Positions 3,316 to 10,786 of a stretch of DNA of 64,000 nucleotides are shown piece by piece. The stretch is taken from assembly GCF_027257155.1 (NCBI RefSeq), contig NZ_JAPWDU010000002.1, positions 372,001 to 436,000 of the forward strand. Direction: 5' to 3'. Within the stretch, counting starts at the first letter, position 1; the number at the start of each line of letters is the position of its first letter. The stretch comes from Cerasicoccus sp. TK19100. GTDB lineage: Bacteria; Verrucomicrobiota; Verrucomicrobiia; Opitutales; Cerasicoccaceae. The position numbers were made by a program, and so were the translations under genes. The notes beneath the pieces are model-generated. The model saw only the letters and a program-made list of their open reading frames with translations. It had not been told where the DNA came from and did no database searches.

Positions 3316-5085
3316 ATGGCCAAGAAAAAGGCTCCCACCACAAAAGCTGCTGTCAAAAAGAAACCCGTTGCTGCAACTCCGGAAGTTTCGCCGATCCAAC
3401 CCACTGCGAAAGCGCCGAAAAAGACTACCGCGCCGCAAAAGAAGCCTGCGGCCGATCTGGTCGATTTTGAGGAAATGGCGCAGACCGTCGAGGCCACCTA
3501 CGAACAGGAGCAACTCAGCGCGCAGGAGGAGGCCTCGCCGATCAACGCAGACCCAACTCAGGCCGAAGGCATTGATCTGCACAACGTCTTTTTACATGAC
3601 TATATTCCGCCGCTGGACATCGTCCACATTACGCCGGAAATGTCCCCAGTGGCTAAGGTCGGCGGCTTGGCCGACGTTGTTTTCGGGCTGACCTGGGAGC
3701 TGCAAATCCGCGGTCACAACGTGGAAACCATTTTGCCCAAATACAACAACATGCGCTACGACCATGTGTATGGATTGGAGCGCTGTTATGACGACCTCTG
3801 GGTGCCATGGGGCGAAGGTGCAATTCATTGCTCGGTTTATTTTGGCTACGTCTACGGCCGCAAATGCTTCTTTATCGAGCCGCACTCGAATGATTGCTTT
3901 TTTGAACGCAACAAGTTCTACGGCGATCATGACGACGTGTTTCGCTTCGCCTTCTTCTCACGCGCGGCGATGGAGTTCCTGCTCAAGTCCGGCAAGCGGC
4001 CCAACATCATCCATTGCCACGATTGGCAGACCGGGCTCGTGCCCGTCCACCAGTGGGAGATTTACCACCGCCTGGGCATGCAAGACTGCCGTGTTTGCTA
4101 CACGATTCACAATTTCAAGCATCAAGGCGTTTGCGGCACGCAGGTGCTCGATGCAGCCGGCCTTTACCGCCACGACTATTATCAGTCCCACGATCGCCTG
4201 GGCGACTACAACCACCCCGGCGCGATTAACCTGATGAAGGGCGGCATCGTTTACTCCAACTTCGTCACCACGGTCTCGCCTACCCATGCTGGCGAAGCCA
4301 AGGACAAGGGTCAGGGCTTTGGTCTGGAGCCCGCACTCCACATCCATGGCGGCAAATACGGCGGTGTGCTCAACGGCATCGATTACGAAGTCTGGAACCC
4401 GGAGAGCGACAAGCACATTCCCTTCCACTATTCGCGTGAGGACATCAGCAAAAAATACGAAAATAAGCGCGCCCTGCGTGAGCGCCTGCTGATGGCCGAT
4501 AACGAGAAGCCGATCATTGCCTTCGTGGGCCGCCTGGACCCGCAAAAGGGCCTGGAGCTGGTGCGCCACGCGCTGTTCTACTGCGTGAACCACGGCGCGC
4601 AATTCGTCATGCTCGGCAGCAGCCCGGATCCGTCGATCGACAGCTATTTCTGGCGTCTCAAGGGCGAGATCAACGAAAACCCGGACAGCCATATCGAAGT
4701 CGGCTTCAACGAAGAGCTCGCGCACCTCATTTACGCCGGGGCAGACATGATGGTCGTTCCGAGTCGCTACGAGCCTTGCGGCCTCACGCAGCTCATCGCC
4801 ATGCGCTACGGCACGGTGCCGCTGGTGCGCAACGTTGGCGGCCTGGCCGACACCGTCTTCGACAAGGATTACTCCGAAAAGCCACTCGACGAGCGCAACG
4901 GCTACGTATTCCACAACGACGACTACGGCGGCATCGAAAGTGCCCTTTCCCGCGCCATCAGCTGTTATTACATGTTCCCGGATCACTTCCGCCAACTCAT
5001 GCTCAACGCCATGAAATGCGACTATTCCTGGAACGTCCCGGGCCAGCACTACCTAAACATTTACAACTACATCCGGGCCAAATAA
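3316..5085 (+). CDS. glgA: glycogen synthase (GT5) with Lys/Ala/Pro-rich N-terminal tail
   Basis: 589 residues against about 480 for a usual GlgA. Residues 1-60 are rich in Lys, Ala and Pro (begins MAKKKAPTTKAAVKKK), then an acidic linker to about 95, then the GT5 catalytic domain. The KxGGL substrate loop is PVAKVGGLAD with K114; the C-terminal Rossmann half has FVGRLDPQKGLEL and SRYEPCGLTQL, the E-x7-E type nucleotide-sugar site. It elongates alpha-1,4-glucan from ADP- or UDP-glucose. It follows the GH57 gene after 17 bases and precedes the GH13 gene, so it is part of a glycogen operon. The basic tail is not part of the catalytic fold; its role is unknown. No glgC is seen in the window. Confidence 0.95.
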   Translation: MAKKKAPTTKAAVKKKPVAATPEVSPIQPTAKAPKKTTAPQKKPAADLVDFEEMAQTVEATYEQEQLSAQEEASPINADPTQAEGIDLHNVFLHDYIPPLDIVHITPEMSPVAKVGGLADVVFGLTWELQIRGHNVETILPKYNNMRYDHVYGLERCYDDLWVPWGEGAIHCSVYFGYVYGRKCFFIEPHSNDCFFERNKFYGDHDDVFRFAFFSRAAMEFLLKSGKRPNIIHCHDWQTGLVPVHQWEIYHRLGMQDCRVCYTIHNFKHQGVCGTQVLDAAGLYRHDYYQSHDRLGDYNHPGAINLMKGGIVYSNFVTTVSPTHAGEAKDKGQGFGLEPALHIHGGKYGGVLNGIDYEVWNPESDKHIPFHYSREDISKKYENKRALRERLLMADNEKPIIAFVGRLDPQKGLELVRHALFYCVNHGAQFVMLGSSPDPSIDSYFWRLKGEINENPDSHIEVGFNEELAHLIYAGADMMVVPSRYEPCGLTQLIAMRYGTVPLVRNVGGLADTVFDKDYSEKPLDERNGYVFHNDDYGGIESALSRAISCYYMFPDHFRQLMLNAMKCDYSWNVPGQHYLNIYNYIRAK

Positions 5086-5100
5086 CGCCCGTACAACGCC

Positions 5101-7572
5101 ATGGCCAATTCTTCGCGCATTATCGCAGCCTACTGGACGGCGCCTGGCAAAGGCGTTGTGCTGATGAACCGCAATTGGACGTCTGCCGCGTTCCCCGACC
5201 TGTATCTCGATGCCGATGGCCTGGAGATCAAGACCGTGAAGCACATGGACCCGGTCGAGCTAGCAAAGTTCACCGGCTTCTACGAGCACAAGGGCGACAT
5301 CATTTTCTGCATCGATCCCAAGCGCTTTCCGCATGTGGATTTTGAGGCGAACCCCGTCCGCGTAGCCGGCCCGTTTAACAACTGGGGGCGCGATAATCAA
5401 TCGCGCTGGAACCTAACCGCGGACAAAGATGCCGCCGGTGAGACGATTTACACCGTTACAGTTCCACGTGGCGAAATCGGATCGGCCAGCAGTAAGCTGA
5501 TCTTTAAATTCGTCACGCAGGACTGGCATTGGCTAACGCCGCTGCGCTGCGCGCCCAACGTCGAATACGACAAGGCGGACAACGCCAACTACCGGCTCAA
5601 CCTCACCCGCAGTGGCAAGCACGCCTTCGAGTTCAAGCTCGCCAAGGGTGAGCGTGGCATGGACCGTGTTTGCCGCATCGGCTGGCGTGACGGCGGCTCC
5701 ATCCGCAACCTCCAGCTCATCAAGCCCGGCCTCAGTTTTTATGACTTGAAGACCGACGCCTTGCTCGGCCCGACTGTTCGCGGCAGGGAGACGACTTTTC
5801 GCATTTTCGCCCCGCGCGCCAAGGGGGTCATCCTGGAACTTTACGACGACCTCGATTGCGAGTTCGTCAACCAGTATGACATGGCGCTGACCAAGGACCA
5901 ACTGTGCTGGGAAGTCACGCTCAAAGGTAACATGCACGGCTGGTATTATTACTTTTACGTCGATGGCGAGAACGACGGCGTGACCACGGAGTTTGACTCC
6001 GATCGCCCGATCCTCGATCCCTACGCGATGGCCACCGTCTCGCATGAGGGCCCGGGCATTGTCATCAACACCAGCCAAACACCGAAGCCGCGCAAAGTCC
6101 ACGAAGCGCCGCCATGGCAGGATCTGGTCTTGCTGGAATGCCATGTGCGCGACATCGCGGCCAAGGCACCGATGAAAATTTCTCAGGACGACCGTCTAGG
6201 CTTTAAGGGCGTCACCCAGTTCCTGAAAAACGAGATGTGCTACCTGCGCACGCTTGGCGCGAATGTGCTGGAGTTCCAGCCATTGCAGCAGTTCGACTCG
6301 ACCAGCAAGGAGGAATACCACTGGGGCTACATGACAACGAACTACTTTTCGCCCTGCGCGTGGTATGGCTCCAACCCGGCCAAGGCCGCGCAGAACGATG
6401 AGTTTCTCGAATTGGTCGAGACCTGTCACTACCACGACTTGAGCGTGGTGGTGGACGTTGTTTACAACCATGTCGGCGTGCCCAACTTCCTGGGCTGCAT
6501 CGACAAAGCTTACTATTTTTACCTGGCTGACAGTGGCGAATACATCAACTGGAGCGGCTGTGGCAACACGCTCAATGCCGAGTCCGCCATGGCCAAGCGC
6601 CTGATGATCGACAGCCTGAAATACTTTGTAGAGGCCTACGATGTCGACGGCTTCCGTTTCGATTTGGCTGAGCTGCTCACCGTCGAAACCCTCAAGGAAA
6701 TCGGCGATGAGTTGAAGGCCGTCAAGGAGTCGATCATCCTGATCGCCGAGCCGTGGAGCTTCCGGGGCGGCATTCAGTGGGATACCCGCCTGGCCGGTTA
6801 CGCTTTTTGGAATGACGGCTATCGCAGCACCATTGCCGATTATGTGAAAGGCAACAGCAATGCCGACGCCCTCGCCTATTACATGAAGGGCTGCCTCGAC
6901 CACATGGCGGCCTGGCCCGCCCAAAGTGTCAACTACACCGCCTCGCACGATGATCGTTGTTGGATCGATAAAATCACCACCAATAACGACTACAACGGCG
7001 AGAACCCGAGTGAGCTGGACATCCAGCGCACCCACCTGATGGCAGCCATCACGCTGTGCGCCGTCGGTATGCCGATGTTCTCCGAGGGGCAGGATTTCCT
7101 CCGCAGCAAACAAGGGATCAACAACACCTATCAGCGCGGCGATATCAATGCCCTCGACTACGGTCGTCTGCAGCGTCACCAGAAAACGCACGAGTTTTTC
7201 CGCGAGCTGATCGGCCTGCGCCGCTCCGAATGGGGCGAATTACTCCGCCTCTGGGACAAGCCCTCACCCGGGTATCTGCGCGTCTTTAAATGCGACAACG
7301 GCGAACGCAGCGCCGCCGCCTTGCTCTTCAATGCCGACTGCGCCCTGGGCCCACGCCAGCTACTCTTCGCCGTGAACCCGCACCGTGAACCGCAGTCGAT
7401 CAATCTGCAGGACGTCGATGGCTTGCACTGGAAATGCGTAGCCAACAACACCGAGGTCATTTATCATGGCTTCGCCGATAACCGCATGGACGGCCATCAT
7501 CACCGTCTTAATCTGCGCGATATGGATGTCGGCATTTGGGTGCGCGAATTCCCGAAAGATATCTACGAGTAA
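5101..7572 (+). CDS. GH13 glycogen debranching/isoamylase-type enzyme
   Basis: 823 residues. The N-terminal 90 residues are not recognised; residues about 95-160 carry an FNNWG motif typical of CBM48/AMPK-type glycogen-binding modules, and a second early-set beta domain lies at about 215-320. The GH13 barrel follows with region I DVVYNH, region II GFRFDLAE (nucleophile D521), region III IAEPW (acid/base E550) and region IV ASHDD (H616, D617). Region IV reads SHDD where most relatives have NHD. This arrangement fits isoamylase, GlgX or pullulanase-type enzymes that hydrolyse alpha-1,6 branches. It sits 15 bases after glgA, in the same direction. Substrate choice cannot be settled from the sequence. 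No signal peptide, so cytoplasmic. Confidence 0.88.
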   Translation: MANSSRIIAAYWTAPGKGVVLMNRNWTSAAFPDLYLDADGLEIKTVKHMDPVELAKFTGFYEHKGDIIFCIDPKRFPHVDFEANPVRVAGPFNNWGRDNQSRWNLTADKDAAGETIYTVTVPRGEIGSASSKLIFKFVTQDWHWLTPLRCAPNVEYDKADNANYRLNLTRSGKHAFEFKLAKGERGMDRVCRIGWRDGGSIRNLQLIKPGLSFYDLKTDALLGPTVRGRETTFRIFAPRAKGVILELYDDLDCEFVNQYDMALTKDQLCWEVTLKGNMHGWYYYFYVDGENDGVTTEFDSDRPILDPYAMATVSHEGPGIVINTSQTPKPRKVHEAPPWQDLVLLECHVRDIAAKAPMKISQDDRLGFKGVTQFLKNEMCYLRTLGANVLEFQPLQQFDSTSKEEYHWGYMTTNYFSPCAWYGSNPAKAAQNDEFLELVETCHYHDLSVVVDVVYNHVGVPNFLGCIDKAYYFYLADSGEYINWSGCGNTLNAESAMAKRLMIDSLKYFVEAYDVDGFRFDLAELLTVETLKEIGDELKAVKESIILIAEPWSFRGGIQWDTRLAGYAFWNDGYRSTIADYVKGNSNADALAYYMKGCLDHMAAWPAQSVNYTASHDDRCWIDKITTNNDYNGENPSELDIQRTHLMAAITLCAVGMPMFSEGQDFLRSKQGINNTYQRGDINALDYGRLQRHQKTHEFFRELIGLRRSEWGELLRLWDKPSPGYLRVFKCDNGERSAAALLFNADCALGPRQLLFAVNPHREPQSINLQDVDGLHWKCVANNTEVIYHGFADNRMDGHHHRLNLRDMDVGIWVREFPKDIYE

Positions 7573-7677: not shown

Positions 7678-8850
7678 TCACCCCAAATAAGTGAGCACCT
7701 TGCCAACGGGGGCCGTGTAGATCGCGACGGTTTCAAGTTTGTGTTCATCAGTGGCAGCTTTCAGGGCGTCGATTACGCGATACATTTGGTCTCGTCCGAG
7801 GATGAACTGCATCGTGCCGAGTTCGCGGTTGATGCGCACGCCCGCGCCCGTCGTTTTGCATTCGCTCTCCATGAAGCGGCCGAGAATCGAAGTCGCGCCG
7901 GGCGCACCGGCCTCCAGTGCTGCATTGACGAGGATATCGATATTTTTGCGCTTCGTGGTGCAGGTGATTCGCTGCAGATCGTAAAGGTATTTACGAGAAC
8001 GCGACGGGCCTATGCCAAGGAAGCTCAGCGCACCGCCACTGCTTTTGCTGCTGTCGATCAGGTTGCTCGTAGCGCGCCAGTCTGCACAGCCCTTCAGGTC
8101 GTCAATGGCGTGGATGATCTGGTGAATGCTCGCCGCGTAGCGTGATGACTGTGTAACGCCGGGCAGCTTGATCATACCACGGTTAATTGGCATGGTGTAG
8201 ATGATGCCGCGCCCTGGCTCGGTCAATCGACCCGCCGTAGCCATGGCGTCGAAAACGGCATCGGCGTCCATATCGTCCACAATGACACGGATGATTTCCT
8301 TGTCCGGATTTTGCGTGAAGCGCAGGATGCCTAAACGGTCGCGCACACCACGGCCTTCGCAGTAGTGAATCGTCGGCCCGTGGGCACCGGCCTTGATCGC
8401 AGACCGCGCGACGGTTTCCGAGATCGAAGACTGAACTGTCGCCGCAATGCCGACCAAATTGCGCTTAAACTTGATCATGCTCAGCCCGGCCTCGGTATGC
8501 TCCCCGTTTTGCCAGACGGGGAAATCCGCGGTCGCTGTGAAGCTACTGCACTCATAGGTGAAGACCGCGCCTGCGCCAGCCAGCCTCAGCTGGCCCAACG
8601 CAACGATCTGCTCCATGATGATGTCCACCTCGTCATGCGGCAGGAGGAATTGAATAATCTCCTGCTCCGGGCTGATGATCGGTAATAAAAATTGATACCA
8701 ACGGTCCTTTACGACTGTTCCGCGCGCACCAAGCTCAAACATGAAACGCGCGGGCTTATCGAGCAGGAAGTCGGTGACTTCGTTACTCGTGCGGCGCGGC
8801 AAAATCGCCGTCACCACGTGGTGTCGTTTTTGGTCAACCCAGTTACTCAT
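7678..8850 (-). CDS. protein of three PII-like units, partner of DUF1538 transporter
   Basis: 390 residues, soluble. Three segments each look like a PII (GlnB) ferredoxin-like unit: about 10-105 (ends AGAGAVFTYEC), about 122-225 (GAHGPTIHYCEGRG in the loop position, ends GRGIIYTMPI) and about 290-388 (EAGAPGATSILGRF in the loop, ends VAIYTAPVGK). The middle and last units are closest to ordinary PII proteins. PII proteins are normally about 112 residues and work as trimers, so one chain could form a pseudo-trimer by itself. The start (8850) overlaps the stop of the DUF1538 gene by eight bases, which argues for coupled translation and for a regulatory role on that transporter. Ligand and uridylylation site are not evident. 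Confidence 0.75.
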   Translation of the reverse strand: MSNWVDQKRHHVVTAILPRRTSNEVTDFLLDKPARFMFELGARGTVVKDRWYQFLLPIISPEQEIIQFLLPHDEVDIIMEQIVALGQLRLAGAGAVFTYECSSFTATADFPVWQNGEHTEAGLSMIKFKRNLVGIAATVQSSISETVARSAIKAGAHGPTIHYCEGRGVRDRLGILRFTQNPDKEIIRVIVDDMDADAVFDAMATAGRLTEPGRGIIYTMPINRGMIKLPGVTQSSRYAASIHQIIHAIDDLKGCADWRATSNLIDSSKSSGGALSFLGIGPSRSRKYLYDLQRITCTTKRKNIDILVNAALEAGAPGATSILGRFMESECKTTGAGVRINRELGTMQFILGRDQMYRVIDALKAATDEHKLETVAIYTAPVGKVLTYLG

Positions 8851-10786
8851 CGACCAACGCTCCTTCTACGTGTTCAGCGGCTTCGGTGGTACGGCGCACG
8901 ATCAGGCCGACGGTCAGCACGGTGATAATCGGCCCCACTGAAGCAAGCGCGAGCACACCAAATCCGTCGATCACTCCCGGCACATTTGCCCCAATGCCAA
9001 GGCCCATGGCCAGCACCAGCGGTACGGTAATCGGCCCAGTCGTCACACCCGCGCTATCCCAGCCAAAGTTCACAAACTCCTCGGTCGAAATATACGTAAG
9101 AAACAGCAGGAAAACATACGGTGGAATAATCAACCAAGTCAGCGGCAGATTGTAGGCGATTTTGCAAACGCCGGTCGCGATGCCGATGCCCACCCCGATT
9201 GCCACGGACTGCATCAGCAGGTTTTTACGAAAAGCGCCTGCCGTGATTTTCTGGACGGTCACACCCAACGCGTTGAGCGCCGGCTCAGCCAGTGTAGCAC
9301 CGTAGCCGAGGAGGAAACCAAACAGCACCGCGAGGACCTTGCCCAAGTGCTCGGCCTGGATCAGCGGACCGAAGCTCGCCTCCATGCCCCAGGGCGATAT
9401 CGAGGCAAACGTCGCCGGAATATTGCTGCCGAGCTGCTCGCCCAATGGCGTGAGCCCCATCGTGATGCCGAGGCCAAACAAGGCCATACCCACCAACGAA
9501 AAAAAGATGCCGACACCCAGTTGGTCCAGGTCGCGGATGGGCTCCTTGACCAACAGTTTCAGGATGACGAAAAGGAAAATGACCAGCGGCACAATCGCCT
9601 GCAGTGCCCCGAAAAGCGCGGTCTTAAACTCGTGAGGAAAGTCCGCCTGCGGGTCCCATTCTTCCACATCGTGCGCCCAAAGCGAGGGGTCGATGTGGCG
9701 CTCGTAAACGATCTGCGCGCCGGATTGCACCAGGCGTCCATTGACCAAATCCGTCTCGCCTCCGACGAAGTGAACATCGACATCCTCCGGCAGTTCACCA
9801 GTCGCCAAAAAGCGCGCATACTCCTCGGCGGTAATGGGCTCTTCGGCCAAGAGCGGCGTCGCCTTAACGTCCTGCATCAGCGCCGGCGGAGGCTCAGCGG
9901 TTTCGATGTTATATTGCGGTAACGGGTCGACTTCAGCTTGCGCGGCAACGTAGTTCGGCGCACCGACATAATCCTGTGCAGCGTAGTGATAGAGGCCCAA
10001 CATCAGCACCGCGATGATCGGAAACAGCGAGGCCAGCGTCACGATACCAAAGCCCGCATTGCTGGAATCTTCGTCACCCACAATGCGGCAAACCCCGATG
10101 CCCAGCGCGAGCACAAGCGGCACCGTGACGGGGCCCGTCGTGACCGCGCCACAGTCCCAAGCCAGGCCAATGATAGGTGCCAGCACTTCATTATTATGCG
10201 CAATAAACGTGAGCACGCACAGCAGGCCGATCAGCGGCAAAATAAACATCTTCAGCGACCAGCCACGAAAAAAGCGCAACACGCCCAAAAGCACCGCGCA
10301 GCCCACGCCGACCGCGACACTCATCACGAGTTGCGTGGAAAAGTCGTTAAGCAGGCTGTAAAGCAGCGGCGCATCATCGGGCTTTACCCCGGCACCCGCC
10401 GCGCGCAGCACCGCAATCGCTGGCTCGGCAAACGTTGCGAGGCCACCGAGTATAAACGCAAAGCCCAATATCGCCGGTAGCTTCGCATTGCGCGGCAACA
10501 CGGCACCAATGATCTCGCCCAGTGGCATGAGGCCCAGGCGCAGGCCTTCCATGAAAAACATTAGCCCGAGCGCGACGACAAACACGCCTACGCCAATCAT
10601 CCCCGCGTAAACCAGCGGCACGCCAAGGATCAGAATCTGAAACGCAGCGAGGTAAACAATGATAAACCAGATGCTCTTGACCTGCTCAAAAAACTTATCG
10701 CGGAAATAGGGCGTGAGCAAACGCAGCGAGCCCCGAAGCCCCAGCTTCGGTCTGCTCCACGCCATCGTTTCCCCTTCGCCCGCCAT
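8843..10786 (-). CDS. DUF1538 family membrane transporter, duplicated halves
   Basis: 647 residues with many hydrophobic segments. It is an internal duplication: half one (about 20-290) and half two (about 375-640) share LGLMPLGE / MGLTPLGE, TFAEPAI / TLAEPAL, and WDCGAVTTGPVTVPLVLA / WDSAGVTTGPITVPLVLA. The segment between the halves (about 290-375) is hydrophilic. This is the DUF1538 architecture; family members are frequently paired with PII-like proteins, but the substrate is not known to me. The two-repeat layout with re-entrant-like TTGP segments suggests an ion or small-solute transporter. It is first in a two-gene operon with the triple PII-like gene. An in-frame ATG eight codons further on is a possible alternative start. 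Confidence 0.85.
   Translation of the reverse strand: MAGEGETMAWSRPKLGLRGSLRLLTPYFRDKFFEQVKSIWFIIVYLAAFQILILGVPLVYAGMIGVGVFVVALGLMFFMEGLRLGLMPLGEIIGAVLPRNAKLPAILGFAFILGGLATFAEPAIAVLRAAGAGVKPDDAPLLYSLLNDFSTQLVMSVAVGVGCAVLLGVLRFFRGWSLKMFILPLIGLLCVLTFIAHNNEVLAPIIGLAWDCGAVTTGPVTVPLVLALGIGVCRIVGDEDSSNAGFGIVTLASLFPIIAVLMLGLYHYAAQDYVGAPNYVAAQAEVDPLPQYNIETAEPPPALMQDVKATPLLAEEPITAEEYARFLATGELPEDVDVHFVGGETDLVNGRLVQSGAQIVYERHIDPSLWAHDVEEWDPQADFPHEFKTALFGALQAIVPLVIFLFVILKLLVKEPIRDLDQLGVGIFFSLVGMALFGLGITMGLTPLGEQLGSNIPATFASISPWGMEASFGPLIQAEHLGKVLAVLFGFLLGYGATLAEPALNALGVTVQKITAGAFRKNLLMQSVAIGVGIGIATGVCKIAYNLPLTWLIIPPYVFLLFLTYISTEEFVNFGWDSAGVTTGPITVPLVLAMGLGIGANVPGVIDGFGVLALASVGPIITVLTVGLIVRRTTEAAEHVEGALVDE

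Follow-up and report, generated by a model that had tools for sequence, protein, structure and literature searches.

Proteins of the PII superfamily are model symmetric trimers, normally built from three separate identical chains, and the ligand clefts lie between neighbouring units of the trimer. In the classical proteins GlnB and GlnK, the ATP phosphates are held by K90, R101, and R103. The PII-like protein SbtB binds cAMP and AMP and has an R-loop, and NifI1 and NifI2 form a hetero-oligomeric PII pair. The T-loops of the SbtB trimer enter SbtA, and bicarbonate uptake is inhibited (PMC8352866). The DUF1538 proteins UmpA and UmpB of Halomonas zhaodongensis, a split pair, constitute a Na+(Li+,K+)/H+ antiporter in which both halves are needed and K0.5 is 0.26-0.46 mM at pH 9 (PMC5484666). 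A preliminary description of the locus studied here had called the substrate of DUF1538 unknown, and this characterization of UmpAB corrects it. DUF1538 is also listed among the pH-adaptation and growth-pH features of a 2026 machine-learning study (PMC13255231), and the antiporter family is tied to salt and alkaline-pH tolerance. PII is mentioned neither in PMC5484666 nor in PMC13255231; our literature search found no paper connecting DUF1538 to PII, and a search on tandem or pseudo-trimeric PII found nothing relevant.

We analysed a window of 64,000 nucleotides from Cerasicoccus sp. TK19100, in which a DUF1538 gene is followed by a gene for one chain with three PII units. The pair represents a real, conserved, and apparently undescribed variant in which a DUF1538 antiporter has a PII regulator made of a single chain, with a mechanism that we propose by analogy.

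The DUF1538 gene and its overlap with the PII gene

The two genes and the parts of the DUF1538 protein are located as follows.

8843-10786, minus strand: membrane protein of two fused DUF1538 halves, 647 aa when read from the first ATG (PF07556)
9992-10663, minus strand: DUF1538 half 1, UmpA-like (PF07556, 6.6e-56)
9632-9970, minus strand: acidic linker between the halves, about 113 residues (22 D/E vs 4 K/R)
8900-9583, minus strand: DUF1538 half 2, UmpB-like (PF07556, 2.5e-57)
8843-8850, minus strand: gene overlap of 8 bp, ATGAGTAA, with the DUF1538 stop within the PII gene start
7678-8850, minus strand: three-unit PII protein, 390 aa (ORF list, Pfam, alignment, AlphaFold2)

The overlap between the two genes, reported in the preliminary description, was recovered at these positions and is identical in the Cerasicoccus relatives L025 and L026; the proteins of genomes from this genus are 77-84% identical to those of the window. 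Translational coupling of the two genes through the overlap is likely. AGGGG lies upstream of the internal ATG at 10762, and on that reading the DUF1538 gene would more likely start at this codon, giving a protein of 639 aa. A promoter and terminator scan produced counts no higher than those in shuffled sequence. Two convergent neighbours lie on the plus strand: 3316-5085, which resembles a glycogen/starch synthase when judged by eye, and 5101-7572, an alpha-amylase-family protein with CBM48 (Pfam), ending approximately 100 bp from the end of the PII gene.

The DUF1538 protein matches PF07556 in two copies (1.6e-111, 371.1 bits; Pfam cut-off 22.6), and each half scores more than 190 bits. In an alignment of 49 sequences, both halves show the motifs WD(C/S)(G/A)(A/G)VTTGP and E-P-A with little or no variation. 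The AlphaFold2 model consists of two helical halves (pLDDT 78, pTM 0.78), and a PDB fold search with this model returned nothing usable (Foldseek best E 0.2, VIA best Z 5.1). By analogy with the Halomonas pair, the protein is a probable fused UmpA-UmpB-type monovalent cation/H+ antiporter. It scores 217.8 bits against the UmpA equivalog NF041627 (cut-off 490) and 191.3 bits against the UmpB equivalog NF041628 (cut-off 500), and we therefore only infer the exact substrate. These scores, and the fact that just one member of the family is characterised, leave some room for a DUF1538 protein that transports something besides Na+, K+, or H+, such as another ion, for which UmpAB would be a poor guide; however, the very strong PF07556 match and the near-invariance of the motifs in both halves make such a substrate unlikely.

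The linker between the two halves measures 70-238 aa in systems with three-unit PII partners versus 29-43 aa in all others. According to the positive-inside rule, the acidic linker is probably located outside the cytoplasm. Because it is acidic and probably external, the long linker may merely be a clade marker.

Three PII units of unequal conservation

The PII units and conserved elements of the 390-aa protein are located as follows.

8530-8823, minus strand: PII unit 1, residues 10-107 (PDB profile 9.9e-05; match to 3l7p)
8167-8463, minus strand: PII unit 2, residues 130-228, best conserved of the three (Pfam P-II 3.9e-07; match to 3bzq)
8296-8355, minus strand: T-loop of unit 2, GRGVRDRLGILRFTQNPDKE (alignment of 57)
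8206-8217, minus strand: B-loop of unit 2, PGRG, residues 212-215 (P212, G213, and G215 invariant)
8074-8121, minus strand: linker motif Q244...D250...G254...W258-R259, diagnostic of three-unit chains
7687-7986, minus strand: PII unit 3, residues 289-388, the most divergent (PDB profile 0.0028; matches to SbtB)

Pfam recognises P-II in unit 2 alone (residues 135-223, 30.8 bits; cut-off 25). The presence of three units, as the preliminary description had proposed, is nevertheless established by independent profiles and by the structural model. The E-values listed above for units 1 and 3 are those of the best PII chain in the PDB, and neither profile reached a non-PII chain of the PDB at E < 0.5. 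HHalign comparison with stand-alone DUF1538-associated PIIs gave probabilities of 98.6, 99.7, and 98.5% for units 1, 2, and 3, respectively. Across the family, P-II is detected at E <= 0.01 in 56 of the 57 members; among 27 relatives, unit 1 is detected in 17 and unit 3, the weakest, in 6 at E <= 0.1. The AlphaFold2 model, computed with 57 aligned relatives, folds all three units as PII (b-a-b-b-a-b), with a mean pLDDT of 83 and a pTM of 0.80. Unit 1 resembles Streptococcus mutans PII 3l7p (rmsd 2.0 over 87 residues), unit 2 resembles Mycobacterium tuberculosis PII 3bzq (91 columns, 27% identity, rmsd 2.2) and also matches a second structure from that species, 3lf0, and unit 3 resembles SbtB 5o3p and 7obj (rmsd 1.9-2.2). 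The structure matches of single units are middling (Z of approximately 6) and become convincing through the sequence evidence. Whole-chain matches to aspartate kinase, chlorite dismutase, and AcrB have low TM or middling Z, and we take them as common ferredoxin-like pieces. On profiles and model together, the chain contains three PII units, which likely close into a ring.

The units are conserved to very different degrees. Columns conserved at 90% or more number 12 of 96 in unit 1, 21 of 99 in unit 2, and 6 of 100 in unit 3. Unit 1 retains R43-G44 and G94. In unit 2, the T-loop follows the pattern G-x-G-x-R-D....L..T.....E, with G166, G168, R170, D171, L176, T179, and E185 invariant in 57 of 57 sequences. 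In unit 3, the B-loop PGRG and the conserved T-loop are both gone. The asymmetry that the preliminary description attributed to the chain is thus real at the level of the units, unit 2 keeping the loops that unit 3 has lost, but its term "asymmetric ligand sites" is perhaps too strong because a search for ligand-binding residues showed that even unit 2 lacks the classical ATP-phosphate residues. Residues 216 (I/F), 227 (I/F/V), and 229 (L/V/I) of this unit, which correspond to K90, R101, and R103, are hydrophobic. Because of these replacements, nucleotide binding by the three-unit chain is doubtful, and classical Mg-ATP/2-oxoglutarate sensing by unit 2 is unlikely. Unit 2 also lacks the GlnB-type T-loop (GRQKGHTE..YRG..Y, with the uridylylated Tyr51) and has its own sequence in that place. 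Unit 2 may bind adenine nucleotides in an SbtB-like mode or have no ligand at all.

The linker between units 2 and 3, approximately 60 residues long and partly of low pLDDT, carries a motif with the pattern Q[ILVM]2xx[ILVMA]D-x(5-9)-WR. This motif is present in every three-unit chain whose region was readable and in none of the single-unit, 1+1, or true two-unit systems or 10,496 other ORFs. Of the 21 residues that are invariant in the family, five belong to this motif (Q244, D250, G254, W258, and R259). That the motif touches the antiporter is a guess.

Linkage to DUF1538 and origin of the asymmetry

Among the 84,980 species genomes that were scanned, three-unit homologues occur at 76 loci, comprising 43 in Verrucomicrobiota, 31 in Pseudomonadota (28 placed in Gammaproteobacteria), and 2 in Planctomycetota. 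DUF1538 is the gene directly upstream in 74 of the 74 loci with enough upstream sequence, which bears out the tight genetic coupling of the preliminary description. No flanking genes recur between phyla around these loci, and they provide no functional clue; because the neighbours are not common to different phyla, we regard the pair itself as the unit.

The linkage is general and reaches past three-unit chains. Our DUF1538 survey covered 288 Verrucomicrobiota, 398 Pseudomonadota, and 199 Planctomycetota genomes together with a hand-picked divergent set, and 21, 126, and 7 genomes of these phyla, respectively, were positive. In this non-random sample of mostly top-scoring loci, a PII gene lies directly 3′ in 73 of the 75 distinct DUF1538 systems for which 600 bp or more of downstream sequence was available. 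The exceptions are G185, which ends at a contig edge (73/74 when it is set aside), and G604, without PII within 1.2 kb. By a rough estimate that assumes five PII genes per genome of approximately 5 Mb, a PII gene would adjoin a given gene by chance about once in a thousand. The G604 locus (contig 58) carries a DUF1538 pair. At the G185 locus (contig 44), a 987-codon open frame starts with a DUF1538 half and contains an odd long insertion or fusion, and a second DUF1538 piece then follows at the contig edge.

The linkage bears on whether this is an ordinary nitrogen-regulatory PII that stands beside a transporter by accident and acts on other targets. The Pfam name P-II speaks for this reading, which we nonetheless consider very improbable: the linkage is strict in three phyla, the residues and T-loop of the GlnB type are absent, and the window genome has four PII genes besides the three-unit one that are available for ordinary nitrogen control.

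The number of PII units differs among DUF1538 systems. In split umpA/umpB pairs, the PII gene comes next and encodes one unit (30 of 30 split systems in the tree, as far as read); in fused systems there are one, 1+1, two, or three units, the 1+1 systems having two tandem PII genes and the two- and three-unit systems a single chain. The idea that UmpA-UmpB fusion drove PII multiplication was set aside: the tree contains just one fused/split change, and the test is without power. Lone DUF1538 genes of approximately 235-264 codons, each with a single PII gene behind it, occur in G207, G279, and G313 and are a possible homo-oligomeric minimal version.

In the unit tree, which has 100 columns and long branches such that deeper joins are unsure, the units 2 of both three-unit subtypes group at 98/91 and the units 1 at 83/89, and the units 3 group weakly (77/43). 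The three-unit chain therefore likely arose once, as far as such a tree can suggest. At L018 (882-1590), L175, L176, L194-L201, and L205, two single-unit PII genes stand in tandem behind a fused DUF1538 gene; the second gene of these pairs is fast-evolving and branches inside the clade formed by the first genes (98/87). Such pairs likely represent a hetero-PII regulator that originated independently of the three-unit chain. At L105, L121, L171, and L172, the chain carries exactly two PII units and lacks the linker motif, a puzzling stoichiometry for a trimeric fold; these two-unit chains are placed apart from the three-unit chains. On these placements, PII asymmetry probably arose at least three times.

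These architectures also matter for the assembly of the 390-aa protein. Instead of a single closed pseudo-trimer, the chains could form larger rings or stacks or pair their units between chains, and both the long linkers, partly of low pLDDT, and the related two-unit chains, which cannot close a trimer alone, are compatible with this. The chain has exactly three units in one conserved order, a single likely origin, and a model with a pTM of 0.80, however, and we consider non-closure quite unlikely.

Proposed regulation of the antiporter and comparison with known systems

We believe that the dedicated one-chain, pseudo-heterotrimeric PII regulator and the cation/H+ antiporter rather probably form a two-gene antiport module. 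In this proposal, the 390-aa protein would be a PII trimer made as one chain with specialised units, the drifted units 1 and 3 most likely completing the trimer and positioning unit 2, which retains the effector loops (T-loop and B-loop). The protein would dock on the antiporter from the cytoplasmic side, and the T-loop of unit 2 would open or close the transporter in the manner of SbtB on SbtA and GlnK on AmtB. A small-molecule state would set the switch; the molecule would probably be an adenine nucleotide, sensed otherwise than in classical ATP/2-oxoglutarate control. Antiport is proposed here by analogy with UmpAB, and docking and gating by analogy with SbtB and GlnK. We favour the module because the three PII folds are supported by a confident model and independent sequence profiles; because PII and DUF1538 are adjacent in nearly every system; because UmpAB antiport, the pH-adaptation listing, and the SbtB-SbtA precedent agree with it; because the unit tree joins the units 2, and likewise the units 1, of both three-unit subtypes and the linker motif is confined to three-unit chains; and because other PII genes are available for nitrogen control. 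Against it stand the replaced K90/R101/R103, the DUF1538 model without a convincing PDB fold match, the scores below the UmpA/UmpB equivalog cut-offs, and G604 without PII.

The loss of the phosphate-binding residues, the degeneration of units 1 and 3, and the almost absolute linkage would also suit a structural or assembly subunit that stabilises the fused halves without sensing a ligand, its PII fold being a docking scaffold. The invariant B-loop residues and hyper-conserved T-loop of unit 2, however, exceed the needs of a scaffold, and we judge such a role improbable. A more specific form of the regulatory module, which we put forward tentatively, is a symmetry-broken switch, in which the three units were fused and specialised to fit an asymmetric antiporter, unit 2 carries the gating T-loop and the sole surviving ligand pocket, and the helical Q..D..WR linker makes a further transporter contact; other lineages would have reached asymmetry separately via tandem genes and two-unit chains.

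The gene pair suggests that ion and pH balance may be controlled by a lopsided switch built into the regulator. In a one-chain PII with one conserved site, sites can be altered separately, which is impossible in homotrimers, and the near-constant PII partner offers a regulatory handle on a widespread antiporter family, as its frequency among the sampled Pseudomonadota genomes illustrates.

Among known systems, UmpAB shares the Pfam family and two DUF1538 halves that act together, but its halves are split, whereas those of the window are fused, joined by a long acidic linker, and under the equivalog cut-offs. The GlnB/GlnK-AmtB system shares the fold of all three units, and unit 2 passes the Pfam P-II cut-off; it differs in that the present chain has three units, lacks K90/R101/R103 and the GlnB-type T-loop, and is dedicated to an antiporter. 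PDB 9p1x contains two different P-II chains, G and H (6 and 12 copies), of which chain H is the best PDB match of the unit 1 profile; it is possibly a hetero-PII complex and a useful template. That it is a structure of DUF1538-associated PIIs is not supported, since both L018 PII proteins fail to match it. Like the 1+1 DUF1538 systems, 9p1x and NifI1/NifI2 combine differing PII subunits in one assembly, but on separate chains. The SbtA-SbtB system likewise pairs a transporter with a PII-like gene in an operon, with gating by the T-loop proposed, and unit 3 matches SbtB structures; SbtB, however, is a homotrimer of one-unit chains acting with SbtA, whereas here three units share one chain and the partner is DUF1538.
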